Shown here in pieces: positions 5,271 through 64,000 of a DNA stretch of 64,000 nucleotides; position 1 is the stretch's first letter, and each line of letters starts with the position of its first letter. The position numbers and the translations under genes are program-made. The stretch lies in contig MNWP01000020.1 in assembly GCA_001872575.1 (NCBI GenBank), forward strand, positions 72,747-136,746, given 5' to 3'. The notes under the pieces were generated by a model. The model worked only from the letters and a program-made list of their open reading frames with translations. It ran no database searches and was not told where the DNA came from. Source of the stretch: Candidatus Peregrinibacteria bacterium CG1_02_54_53 (lineage in GTDB: Bacteria; Patescibacteriota; Gracilibacteria; Peribacterales; Peribacteraceae).

Positions 5271-5717
5271 ATGTTCTGCCCGCGCTGTAAGGCGGCTGAT
5301 ACTGCAGTGGTTGACTCGCGCATTGCCGAGGACGGTCGCGCAGTACGTCGACGCCGTGAGTGCCCCAAGTGCAATCACCGTTTCACGACATTCGAGCGTC
5401 AGGAGCTCAGTAATCTCATCGTCATCAAACGCGACGGCACACGTGAACCGTACAGTCGTTCCAAGTTGGAGCGCGGTATTTGGTTGGCATGTTCGAAACG
5501 GCCGATCTCACAAGAAAAAATTGACCGTCTGCTCACCAAATTGGAGGAAAAATGGGGTGGCAACCGCCGTGAAGTGGCCAGTTCGACCATCGGAACGGAT
5601 GTCATGCGGGAATTGAAGAAACTCGATACTGTCGCGTACATCCGATTTGCCTCTGTGCATCGCGAATTTAAAGATGTCGTTGAATTTAAAAAAGAACTGG
5701 GCAGATTGCTGCACTGA
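5271..5717 (+). CDS. nrdR: transcriptional repressor NrdR
   Basis: MFCPRCKAADTAVVDSRIAEDGRAVRRRRECPKCNHRFTTFE Zn ribbon plus ATP-cone; 148 aa. Confidence 0.96.
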   Translation: MFCPRCKAADTAVVDSRIAEDGRAVRRRRECPKCNHRFTTFERQELSNLIVIKRDGTREPYSRSKLERGIWLACSKRPISQEKIDRLLTKLEEKWGGNRREVASSTIGTDVMRELKKLDTVAYIRFASVHREFKDVVEFKKELGRLLH

Positions 5718-5823
5718 ACACACTATAGAACAGAGGGATATTCCGACGAATAGACCCTGAGCGAGCCTTGAAGAGACAAATCGAAGGGTGCAGGAATTCA
5801 AGAAGGAATTGAGGCAGCTCTTG

Positions 5824-6300
5824 AAGTAAGAAAAGTAAGGAAAGGCAGGAGAGTAAGGAAGGGATTCTCTGCTATGATTTCATCATGCTCAGAAAAATGG
5901 ACATTGGCTTCCGCAGGCTCATTGTCTGGCAAGAGGCAAAAAAATTGGCCCTTAAAATCTATGGAGTAACAAAAGTATTTCCTAAAGAGGAGCAGTTTCA
6001 CCTCTTGACACAAATTCGCAGGGCGGCCACGTCAATCATGGCAAACATCGCAGAAGGATCGGCAATGCAGACACGGGCACACCGTGATGCTTTTTACGGT
6101 AAGGCACGGGGTTCTGTGGCAGAAGTGGATGCATTCATTGAGTTGAGTTCCGACCTGGATCTGATAGCAAAAGCAGATGCAAACGATATTGCTGACCATT
6201 GCGCTCGTTTGAGCTATCTTCTTACCCAATTACTGAGAAGCAAGTAGCTTTTCTGTTCTACTTTCCTTACGTTCCTTACGTCCCTCACCTTCCTTACCTC
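5824..6300 (+). mobile_element. putative IVP/Avd-like cassette: four-helix-bundle gene flanked by inverted GTAAGG-type repeats
   Basis: aagtaagaaaagtaaggaaaggcaggagagtaaggaaggg before the ORF and ctttccttacgttccttacgtccctcaccttccttacc after it, in inverted orientation. Confidence 0.5.
5885..6247 (+). CDS. four helix bundle protein (23S rRNA IVP / Avd-fold family)
   Basis: FRRLIVWQEAKKLALKIYGVTKVFPKEEQFHLLTQIRRAATSIMANIAEGSA... intact 120 aa, typical family signature. Confidence 0.9.
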   Translation: MLRKMDIGFRRLIVWQEAKKLALKIYGVTKVFPKEEQFHLLTQIRRAATSIMANIAEGSAMQTRAHRDAFYGKARGSVAEVDAFIELSSDLDLIAKADANDIADHCARLSYLLTQLLRSK

Positions 6301-8067
6301 ATGTTACGAACGCACACCTGTGGCGAACTCACGGCGAAGAACGCGACGAAAGAAGTGACGCTCTGCGGCTGGGTGCACCGACGTCGCGACCACGGAGGGT
6401 TGATCTTTGTCGACCTGCGGGACCGCTACGGTTTTACACAGATCGTATTTGATCCCGACAACAAGCCCGTATTTGCAACCGCCGAGAAAATCCGTCCCGA
6501 GTGGGTGCTGAAGATCACCGGAACCGTGCGAAAGCGGGTTGAGGGCGCGGAACGGAAGGAGAATCCCACGGGGGAGATAGAAGTGATCGCGGAAGAACTT
6601 GCGGTCCTGAGTGAGGCGAAGACCCCGCCTTTCGAAATCGATCAGGAGAAAGAGGTTAACGAGGAGCTTCGGCTACAGTATCGCTTCTTGGATCTTCGGC
6701 GCCCCACCCTACAAAAAATGATGCAGAGGCGGGATGCCTTCATCGGATACATTCGCACCTACATGCACAGCAAGAATTTTACTGAGGTACAGACCCCCAT
6801 CCTCTCCAATTCTTCGCCGGAAGGAGCGCGTGACTATCTTGTACCGAGCCGACTGCACCGTGGCATGTTCTACGCCCTTCCGCAGGCTCCACAGCAGTTC
6901 AAGCAGCTCCTTATGGTGGCGGGCCTTGACCGTTACTTTCAGATCGCCCCTTGCTTCCGTGACGAAGACCCCCGCGCAGACCGACACCCAGGCGAGTTCT
7001 ACCAGCTTGACCTGGAAATGAGCTTCGTCACACAAGAGGATGTATTTGAAGTTGTGGGACCTCTTATGATGGAACTCACGGAACGCTTTAGTGATAAAAA
7101 AGTCCTGCAGGAAACATTTCCTCAGTTCACATGGAAAGAGATCTTTGACCGCTACGGATCAGACAAGCCCGACTTGCGCTTCGGCTTGGAGCTGGCGGAT
7201 GTCACACCTCTCTGCAGGGGATGCGGATTCTCCGTCTTTGCCGATGCCGTTGCTCAGGGGGGAGCCGTAAAAGCCTTACGAGTCGCCGGTGGCGCAAAAT
7301 TCTCTCGCAAGGAGATTGATGATTTTACAGAGGCCGCCCGGACATTCGGGGCCAAGGGGCTCGCATGGATGAAGCTGACCAAAGGAAAACTCGAAGGTGT
7401 GCCCGCGGCGAAGTTGGGGCCCGATCTCGCTGGAAAAATTTCCGAACAACTTAAGTTGGAAGAAGGGGATATTGCCTTCTTCACGGCGGATAAATGGCTC
7501 ACCGCGTGCCGTTCAATCGGCCAGGTCCGCGCCGAGATCGGCAAAAAACTCAAATTGGCTGACCCCAAGGCGGCCGCGTGGGCATGGGTAAAGGATTATC
7601 CCATGTACGAATGGAACGAGCAGGATAAGAAAATTGATTTTTCGCATAATCCCTTCTCTATGCCACAGGGTGGGATGGAGGCGCTGGAAGCGAAAGATCC
7701 TCTTTCGATTCTTGCCTTCCAGTACGATCTTATTTGCAACGGCTTCGAGATCAGCTCAGGAGCCATCAGAAATCACCGTCCGGATATTATGTACAAAGCA
7801 TTTGGTATCGCCGGATACACGAAAGAGGATGTTGATCGAAAATTTGGTGGCATGATCCGCGCTTTCCAATACGGTGCCCCGCCACATGGCGGCATCGCTC
7901 CGGGCATTGACCGTCTTATGATGGTGTTATGGGAATGTCCGAGTATTCGTGATATTTATGCATTCCCCAAAAATGGAAAGGCGCAGGATGTCATGATGGG
8001 GGCTCCGTCCGTTGTTTCTGACGCACAGCTCAACGAGCTGAACATCCGGGTTGTCGAAGAAAAGTAA
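6301..8067 (+). CDS. aspS: aspartyl-tRNA synthetase
   Basis: MLRTHTCGELTAKNATKEVTLCGWVHRRRDHGGLIFVDLRDRYG; class II motifs, GIAPGIDRLMM; start trimmed from ORF 6199. Confidence 0.96.
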   Translation: MLRTHTCGELTAKNATKEVTLCGWVHRRRDHGGLIFVDLRDRYGFTQIVFDPDNKPVFATAEKIRPEWVLKITGTVRKRVEGAERKENPTGEIEVIAEELAVLSEAKTPPFEIDQEKEVNEELRLQYRFLDLRRPTLQKMMQRRDAFIGYIRTYMHSKNFTEVQTPILSNSSPEGARDYLVPSRLHRGMFYALPQAPQQFKQLLMVAGLDRYFQIAPCFRDEDPRADRHPGEFYQLDLEMSFVTQEDVFEVVGPLMMELTERFSDKKVLQETFPQFTWKEIFDRYGSDKPDLRFGLELADVTPLCRGCGFSVFADAVAQGGAVKALRVAGGAKFSRKEIDDFTEAARTFGAKGLAWMKLTKGKLEGVPAAKLGPDLAGKISEQLKLEEGDIAFFTADKWLTACRSIGQVRAEIGKKLKLADPKAAAWAWVKDYPMYEWNEQDKKIDFSHNPFSMPQGGMEALEAKDPLSILAFQYDLICNGFEISSGAIRNHRPDIMYKAFGIAGYTKEDVDRKFGGMIRAFQYGAPPHGGIAPGIDRLMMVLWECPSIRDIYAFPKNGKAQDVMMGAPSVVSDAQLNELNIRVVEEK

Positions 8068-57237: not shown

Positions 57238-57345
57238 CGAAGAATGATGAAGTAAGAATTATGAATTAAACAGGGAATTGCTCAGATTGCATTCCACGTT
57301 CATTATTCTTGATTCTTTATTCCTCATTCATACTTCAATTCCTTC
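57238..57345. repeat. inverted AT-rich simple-repeat pair without a gene between the arms
   Basis: cgaagaatgatgaagtaagaattatgaattaa (57238-57269) and ttcattattcttgattctttattcctcattcatacttcaattcc, inverted. Confidence 0.55.
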
Positions 57346-62588: not shown

Positions 62589-62980
62589 CTAGGATACAGG
62601 GTTAGGGTTAGGGTTAGGAGTATTTTTTCGATCTGTGTTTGTGAAACGACGAATGAGTCCAGAAAGCATCTTTCCAACTTCCTGCAGCAATTTCATTGCG
62701 CACACAGTTTGTGAAGCTGAAATATGTCCTACGGTAATACATACAAGTAATAAGGCGTGTGTTTCCGCGCATTCCCCTCGTGCAATGGTGTATCTGTGTG
62801 CCTTGTCAGCCGAAGAATTTCGCCTTCTGCGGTGTTTGCGAGAATACCGGTTGAGGATCTTCGCATTTGAGAAATGAGGTTAAATTTTTCCTCAGGTGGG
62901 AATAAGGAGGTCAATCTATAGATCTCTTTGATGAGATCCATTTCTCGTTGCCAGATATGAAGGTGTTCAAATGATTTCAT
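62589..62980 (-). pseudogene. four helix bundle protein (IVP/Avd-fold) with a -1 frameshift
   Basis: Frame 1: MKSFEHLHIWQREMDLIKEIYRLTSLFPPEEKFNLISQMRRSSTGILANTAEG; frame 2 continues RNSSADKAHRYTIARGECAETHALLLVCITVGHISASQTVCAMKLLQEVGKMLSGLIRRFTNTDRKNTPNPNPNPVS*. Confidence 0.82.
62598..62618 (+). repeat. telomere-like AGGGTTAGGGTTAGGGTTAGG
   Basis: direct reading. Confidence 0.95.
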
Positions 62981-62989
62981 AACTACTGT

Positions 62990-63036
62990 CCTAACCCTAG
63001 TCTTAGCCCTAACCCTAACCCTAACCCTAACCCTAG
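62990..63036 (-). repeat. telomere-like (CCCTAA)n array, interrupted by TCTTAG
   Basis: direct reading; supplies the TAG stop of the adjacent comM-like CDS. Confidence 0.95.
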
Positions 63037-64000
63037 TCTTCGATCGTCTGCCGATACTGCAAAGCCTCTGCCACGTGTGCGATCTCAATATCCTGCGTAC
63101 CCGCCAGATCCGCAATGGTGCGAGCGACCTTGATGGCTCGGTGGTAGCCACGCGCAGAAAGCCCCATTCGATCCACCGCCTGTGAGAGCAGCGTGTGCGC
63201 ATCTTCTTGAAGAGGGCAGAGCGTATCGATTTCTTTCACTCCCATTTCTTTATTGGTGCGAATGTGAAGTTTTGCGAATCGTCGTGCCTGATGCGCGCGC
63301 GCCCGAAGCACACGTTTAAGAACGGCGGCCGTCGTATCACCGTTCGTCTTGGCCGGTCGCTGAAGATCTTCAATCGGAACAGGCTGCACGTTGACGGTGA
63401 GGTCGATGCGATCCAAGAGCGGAGCCGAGATGCGACGGTGCACACGTTCTTTGCTGCCTGCCGTGAAGCGAGGAGGATTCATGGCGGCGATCATGGTGAA
63501 ATCTGCCGGAAAAGTGACGGAGCCCTGCGCCCGCGTAATGGTGATGCGGCGGTCCTCGAGGGGTTGACGCAATACTTCGAGTACTTGTGCCGGAAACTCC
63601 GCGAGCTCATCCAAGAAGAGCACACCTCGATGGGCGAGACTGATTTCGCCGGGCCCTGGAATCTGCCCGCCGCCCACGATGCTCACGCCGCTCGCCGTGT
63701 GGTGCACCACACGGAATGGCCGGTGTGTGATGAGGGGAATCTCGGGAGGGAGCAGATTGGCGACGGAGTAGATCTGCGTGACTTCGATGGATTCTTCCTG
63801 CGACAGGGGCGGCAGAATACCGCGAAATGCACGAGCCAGAAGCGTCTTGCCCGCGCCCGGTGCTCCGCTCATCAGCACGTTGTGCCCGCCCGCCGCGGCG
63901 ATCTCAAGCGCGCGCTTGACGTGCTCCTGACCGCGAATATCACAGAAGTCCACAACCTCAGGATCTTTGTTCACGGCACTGCTCGCCGGTATGGGAATGG
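63033..64000 (-). CDS. comM: Mg-chelatase-like / ComM family AAA ATPase, 5' end outside window
   Basis: DIRGQEHVKRALEIAAAGGHNVLMSGAPGAGKTLLARAF; ISLAHRGVLFLDELAEF; MNPPRF; frame open past window end. Confidence 0.92.
   Translation of the reverse strand, partial: IPIPASSAVNKDPEVVDFCDIRGQEHVKRALEIAAAGGHNVLMSGAPGAGKTLLARAFRGILPPLSQEESIEVTQIYSVANLLPPEIPLITHRPFRVVHHTASGVSIVGGGQIPGPGEISLAHRGVLFLDELAEFPAQVLEVLRQPLEDRRITITRAQGSVTFPADFTMIAAMNPPRFTAGSKERVHRRISAPLLDRIDLTVNVQPVPIEDLQRPAKTNGDTTAAVLKRVLRARAHQARRFAKLHIRTNKEMGVKEIDTLCPLQEDAHTLLSQAVDRMGLSARGYHRAIKVARTIADLAGTQDIEIAHVAEALQYRQTIED

Follow-up and report, generated by a model that had tools for sequence, protein, structure and literature searches.

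What kind of genetic unit is the short cassette that lies between nrdR and aspS in Candidatus Peregrinibacteria bacterium CG1_02_54_53, where a gene for a protein of the IVP family is enclosed by two inverted tandem arrays? The cassette occupies positions 5823-6299 of the window, by which we mean the whole 64,000-nucleotide stretch of DNA analysed here (contig C19, 72747-136746, of the 1.37-Mb genome G000). We consider, with a probability of roughly 0.7, that it is one copy of a small mobile element made up of inverted arrays of 6-9-nt units and an IVP gene, the protein of which would bind the arrays, with host enzymes moving the element. The features of the window are listed in Table 1.

Table 1. 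Coordinates of the cassette, its neighbours and the other array elements of the window.
Feature	Position	Strand	Basis
nrdR	5271-5717		
Left (5') array, about 4.5 tandem copies of a 9-nt purine-rich unit, AAGTAAGAA/AAGTAAGGA/AAGGCAGGA/GAGTAAGGA	5823-5863	+	mechanical repeat search
TATGAT, -10-like hexamer lying 3' of the left array, with 6 nt from its end to the ATG	5873-5878	+	read from sequence
IVP gene, 120 aa, four-helix-bundle protein (PF05635 / TIGR02436)	5885-6247	+	profile matches
Right (3') array, inverted (ACTTTCCTTACGTTCCTTACGTCCCTCACCTTCCTTACCT), its end directly adjoining the aspS ATG	6260-6299	-	
aspS ATG	6301		
Mini lacking an IVP gene: 7-nt unit (GAATTAT/GAATGAT) in inverted arrays, short loop (30-50 nt)	57240-57338	.	
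Second IVP element, at the comM-pyrF junction: its gene is broken and has inverted TTAGGG-type (6-nt) arrays on both sides	62592-63047	-	

It was stated in the first-pass annotation of this DNA that an intact 120-residue IVP gene with inverted arms stands between nrdR and aspS, and this is confirmed. The protein belongs to the family, scoring 110.7 bits against PF05635 (curated cut-off 33.8) and 100.4 bits against TIGR02436 (cut-off 24), and a mechanical search for inverted repeats pairs 5822-5860 with 6263-6301 (39 nt, 74% complementary) and yields an exact 10-mer pair common to both arms. The arms are 74-86% complementary and amount to terminal inverted repeats, or stem-capable ends, around the ORF; set against arms mismatched between IVP copies, their own complementarity (14.5) ranks at the 99th percentile. 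Markov shuffling of the whole window leaves no inverted tandem pair, against three in the real sequence, namely the nrdR-aspS cassette, one at 62.6 kb and one lacking an IVP gene at about 57.24 kb. The 8-nt repeat named in the title of the annotation is wrong: the tandem arrays of both arms have a period of 9 (about AAGTAAGGA), and the unit is therefore 9 nt. It had also been emphasized that a G-rich arm precedes the ATG and a C-rich arm follows the stop codon, which is correct but says less than it seems to, because with inverted arms 'G-rich upstream' holds for either direction of the gene; the regularity behind it is that both arms, read inward, are poor in C (about 10-11%). As placed, the TATGAT hexamer would yield a leaderless mRNA. 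A second copy of the nrdR 3' end (..EFKKELRQLLK and stop) is found at 5788-5823, 70 nt past the nrdR stop; because this copy fits the nrdR ends of genomes G001 and G003 better than does the end of the window's own ORF, the 3' end of nrdR has been duplicated or replaced beside the element.

The arms were compared across the class in a sample of 118 IVP loci from 29 genomes, the upstream arm of each copy being scored against its own downstream arm and this score set against arms mismatched between different copies. The median own-arm score is 17, as opposed to 8 for mismatched copies, and own arms exceed the 95th percentile of the mismatched in 90% of 113 loci and the 99th in 67%. The best periods are 7 (48 loci), 9 (31), 8 (25), 6 (4) and others (5), and the class arms read inward contain about 10-11% C. 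Every copy in this survey has its own unit, with the architecture kept. A second set, obtained by a profile scan of genome contigs, comprised 80 loci, 78 of them usable, from more than 20 phyla (Bacteroidota, Pseudomonadota, Bacillota, Chloroflexota, Planctomycetota, Acidobacteriota, Cyanobacteriota, Fibrobacterota, Elusimicrobiota, several CPR lineages and others). Own arms exceed the 95th percentile of the mismatched in 82% of these 78 loci. The arrays are mostly of period 7, with AG at a fixed position of the unit and the remaining positions nearly free; it should be noted that this profile was built from a narrower alignment and that one IVP clade (period 7) is therefore over-represented. 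The same arm pattern, with an own unit per copy, is seen in 12 named genomes carrying 1-11 IVP copies, and the own-arm match also holds for loci on cyanobacterial plasmids.

Recognisable arms are absent at 10-18% of IVP loci, and IVP proteins are found in other settings too: adjoining an ISL3-type transposase without arms, as in Nostoc PCC 7120 (these copies were excluded from the arm analysis), and as Avd in DGRs. Loci L385, L386 and L391, on plasmids of Nostoc PCC 7120 and HK-01, are arm-less IVP genes adjoining transposase genes, with an ISL3 / IS204-type transposase directly upstream in L385 and L391; L385 and L386 have some 830 bp in common around the IVP gene. In Vreelandella (G039, contig C12) three IVP genes (L291, L298 and L305) lie within 13 kb, two of them 91% identical, and one of the three has extremely long, regular heptamer arms. 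Six IVP loci gave no Rfam match at E up to 0.1, and phages gave no match.

There is good evidence for the earlier proposal that the repeat sequence co-varies with IVP lineage while the architecture is conserved, for which the 118 class loci from 29 genomes provide support. On a tree of 116 IVPs, which is a quick version built on few columns, the period undergoes 15 changes, and it undergoes as many when each site is represented by a single locus (72 loci), against a minimum of 28 over 200 shuffles. Period 9 against the rest takes two changes, nearly all period-9 arrays falling in one clade. Array similarity drops with IVP distance (Mantel r -0.27, p 0.001), and does so within equal period (r -0.43, p 0.001). 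Consensus units can be drawn up for clades, such as GTAAGGAAG for the clade of the window copy and GAGTANTG for a period-8 clade; several beat random groups of arrays of the same period and some do not exceed this null. The period and the core of the unit depend on the IVP lineage. The stricter idea that each clade has its own repeat unit stands as regards the consensus, but the variable positions are copy-specific within a clade, so that one clade is not one unit.

The nrdR-aspS junctions of relatives had been put forward as a check on insertion, and on comparison the cassette proves to be absent or gene-less in some of them. An IVP gene is present in G000 and G002 (84.5% identical); G001 and G003 have the same arrays as G000, with the gene replaced by a short loop (about 36 nt); arrays of other units occupy the junction in G008, G014 and G017; and no arrays are found there in G010 and G015. 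The empty nrdR-aspS junctions available for comparison with the window copy are all diverged. The element would have entered this spacer in an ancestor within the genus, and G001 and G003 probably lost the IVP gene later and kept the arms. At atpD-atpC, four congeners have IVP genes with three unit types, and G010, G016, G018 and G022 have short plain spacers. Seventeen junctions are common to the IVPs of more than one genome, some of them in opposite orientation, and three junctions of the window (28945, 52457 and 60589) are plain here and hold gene-less inverted arrays, which we call minis, in congeners.

Since the window is only about 73% identical to G001-G004, which is too diverged for target duplications to be recognised, plasmids were used to define exact borders. 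At site P1, between two genes of a conjugation region, plasmids of Trichormus and Scytonema carry a 424-bp unit (arms and IVP gene); the site is empty in plasmids of Aulosira, Nostoc carneum, Nostoc PCC 7120 and others, and the flanks are 97-98% identical. The IVP gene is the sole ORF of this element, and no transposase is encoded. A related plasmid element at another junction, where its relatives are plain, has an IVP about 79% identical (DNA 78%) and the same CAG(A/G)A(A/G)T-type unit. The arms and the gene move together, and the unit travels with the element. Flanking short duplications (TAAT at P1, ATTCT(A) at P3) are only suggestive of target duplications, there being two such sites with array ends that blur the border. 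Terminal inverted repeats, and a discrete insertion against an empty allele (the 424 bp at P1), are traits of insertion sequences and MITEs; an insertion sequence with its own transposase is rejected because the plasmid element encodes the IVP only. Also rejected is the idea, which came from the conserved last codons at the lexA-dinB junction of G020, that the unit is copied from the target site: the excess is small over 101 array sides (z 2.3-3.0), and plasmid elements at two different sites have one unit. Near-identical elements differ in copy number (5 against 3 units), from which it follows that the arrays slip. No near-identical copies at different sites of one genome were found among the class loci, the closest pair, at about 79%, being that on plasmids, and an IVP identity of 0.91 within one genome is confined to the local Vreelandella cluster; movement is therefore rare, or recent bursts went unsampled.

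Inverted arrays also occur away from IVP genes. A stretch of 800 kb of G003 contains 24 tandem arrays that are inverted and C-poor, whereas order-3 Markov sequence contains none; three of the 24 hold IVP genes (the IVP label of one pair being given by position), most of the others are hairpins with loops of 12-45 nt, and chance probably explains a few entries whose repeats are GC-rich and coding-like. The gene-less minis outnumber the IVP genes. Their units recur and fit IVP families (GAATTAT with L023, GGGAACTA with L081, GGACTAA with L060, and others), and the minis of one family have sub-terminal motifs in common and different loops. Six IVP-bearing genomes contain 36 minis in 1193 kb and five IVP-free genomes none in 323 kb, against an expectation of about 9.8 (a count of zero having a Poisson P of about 6e-5), in what is a modest sample with base composition differing between genomes; G026, which is IVP-bearing, also has none in 80 kb. 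Of 37 minis, 13 find their best match in an IVP array of their own genome (1.8 expected, p=0.0002). The proposal of the first-pass annotation needs correction in this respect: IVP-less hairpin arrays occur, but in the sample they do so only in genomes that carry an IVP. In this sample, then, minis depend on the presence of an IVP and carry the units of their own genome's IVPs. The 6-nt, telomere-like TTAGGG arrays of the 62.6-kb element are found again in G003 with no gene between them (e.g. at G003:286818 and 692497). At L406 (1160-1417) an IVP-less element has GGCAGGA arrays and a loop of more than 100 nt; at the same junction L397 holds an IVP element of a different unit.

Could the IVP be a regulator rather than a mobility factor, binding arrays in DNA or in nascent RNA, with its own arrays serving self-control and the minis constituting a regulon at operon junctions? 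The clade-matched units speak for this, as do the 7-nt unit of the wide clade, with its conserved AG and otherwise nearly free positions, and the arrays that abut host stop codons, for example at atpD-atpC, nrdR-aspS and lexA-dinB. We nevertheless regard this as unlikely, because minis and IVPs are gained and lost at orthologous junctions, the same junction holds different units in sister genera, the gene itself moves with its arms, as at the plasmid site, and a regulon would have no need of inverted arms at each site.

G000 contains seven matches to PF05635, not counting the two halves of the broken IVP at 62.6 kb, which lie in two different frames. All copies have inverted short-tandem arms, the units being CAGTATG (7), AAGTAAGGA (9), GAGAAGTTG-like (9), GAAGCAGAG (9), GTTTACTGG-type, ACTTGAA (7) and GGGTTA (6); the array of L009 is common with its neighbour L006. 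L009 (contig C20), one of the seven, and L117 (G001, contig C47) are weak IVP matches beside reverse transcriptases and are probably the Avd proteins of the DGRs themselves. L006 (G000, contig C20) and L096 (G002, contig C12) are inserted near DGR reverse transcriptases. A retroelement, in which the transcript is copied in trans by a reverse transcriptase (e.g. of a DGR or group II type), the IVP acts as an Avd-like partner and slippage of the enzyme generates the tandem units, seems to us still less probable than a regulator. Although the kinship of IVP with Avd (weak NF033474 matches of several relatives; PMC10053308) and the resemblance of the telomere-like, copy-specific units to the products of reiterative copying both speak for it, many IVP-rich genomes have no PF00078 reverse transcriptase, among them nine of the class with 3-11 IVPs each (G003, G011, G014, G017, G020, G022, G026, G030 and G032), and the enzyme does not seem to be required for movement. 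The window cassette itself was rejected as a DGR Avd: the reverse transcriptases of G000 are only on contigs C20 and C7, with none on C19, and the window protein has no NF033474 match, its relatives scoring 25-40 bits against a cut-off of 80. A passive origin, in which slippage during replication produces short tandem hairpins in spacers and IVP genes do no more than survive or insert within them, would account for the 5-versus-3 copy numbers and for the G020 lexA-dinB unit, which is the host gene's own last codons, but is very improbable, being strongly disfavoured by the fit of the period to the IVP protein tree and by the mini-free 323 kb of IVP-free genomes, and counting against it also are the joint gain of arms and gene and units that are generally not target-derived (z only 2.3-3.0).

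The reading of the cassette as a small mobile element leads to a possible mechanism. The closest solved relative of the window protein is XCC0516 of Xanthomonas (2gsc, five chains), which is given as a pentameric ring in PMC4990558, citing Lin 2006. By comparison with this ring, the IVP protein would bind the array, probably with one unit per subunit, an arrangement that 4-6 units per arm would suit. It would recognise the ends of its own element, and those of minis in trans, and may hand them over to enzymes of the host for cutting and copying, the DNA being perhaps in hairpin or single-stranded form. The four-helix-bundle IVP fold has no known catalytic domain, and the chemistry of movement must therefore come from elsewhere; the cutting and joining steps would be supplied by the host or by another element. 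Slippage of units, and exchange between the two arms, could keep the arrays alike within a copy and let them drift between copies. TRAP is an oligomeric ring that binds one short NAG-type unit per subunit and winds NAG repeats round the ring; it offers an analogy only, as its fold is unrelated and it is regulatory, not mobile. Avd is a pentamer that binds nucleic acid. Avd and the present IVPs are alike as homologous four-helix-bundle proteins working with nucleic acid (PMC10053308), but Avd is found beside its own reverse transcriptase and template repeat, whereas the IVPs described here stand alone between arrays.

The rRNA intervening sequences of Leptospira and Coxiella encode a protein of the same family (the S23/IVP ORF), are about 430 nt long in Coxiella, have complementary ends that form a long stem, and have long been suspected of being mobile or selfish (PMC4990558). 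They lie inside 23S rRNA, from which they are cut out by RNase III, whereas the present elements lie between protein genes; the window cassette, located at nrdR-aspS, is not such a sequence. Tandem-array arms, a lineage-specific period and gene-less derivatives are not described for rRNA intervening sequences in the literature found. IVP genes have been noted in rRNA insertions of CPR bacteria (PMC11270868) and inside cas loci (PMC3936711); those in the cas loci seen here look like elements between cas6 and cas4. L396 (1119-1483) and L393 are such IVP elements on cyanobacterial plasmids, the left array of L396 having grown to about 300 nt, and the same cas6-cas4 junction in L400 holds an unrelated repeat. 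The likeness to REPIN/RAYT systems and MITEs lies in short inverted-repeat elements that are dispersed in spacers and spread in trans by a protein encoded elsewhere (for REPINs, PMC3116915). A RAYT, however, is a transposase of the HUH type and a REP is a single palindrome, whereas the present elements encode a four-helix bundle without a known catalytic site and end in arrays of 6-9-nt units. G-rich 7-nt arrays have been reported in spacers of Xanthomonas (GGGAATC) and Nostoc (GGGGAYT), with 70-75 convergent inverted pairs per Xanthomonas genome left unexplained, and no link with IVP genes is drawn in the passages of PMC4692102 consulted; we predict that the Xanthomonas heptamer arrays are tied to IVP elements. 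A partial search, with most subscription journals and preprints outside it, found no published link of IVP genes with inverted tandem arrays.

We conclude that the cassette represents a pan-bacterial family of mobile elements, the sole protein of which is a repeat-matched four-helix bundle, and which spreads short non-coding derivatives. We would put at about even odds a broader proposal: these elements would form a class that lacks a transposase, extends across the bacteria and encodes as its sole factor a four-helix-bundle protein able to form rings. The protein would read a telomere-like unit, the length of which (6-9 nt) depends on the protein lineage, and gene-less hairpins would be spread in trans; the rRNA intervening sequences would descend from this class, as perhaps would the heptamer arrays of Xanthomonas and Nostoc. 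Proteins annotated as IVP or 'four helix bundle' occur in most bacterial phyla and have no assigned function, and where the rRNA intervening sequences came from has been a question for more than 25 years (PMC4990558). Viewing IVP genes as parts of elements suggests why they turn up 'inside' cas loci, two having been found between cas6 and cas4. With the IVP tied to clade-matched arrays, gene-less derivatives and clean insertion sites, the binding target of the protein can now be tested, as can the question of how something so small moves without a transposase.
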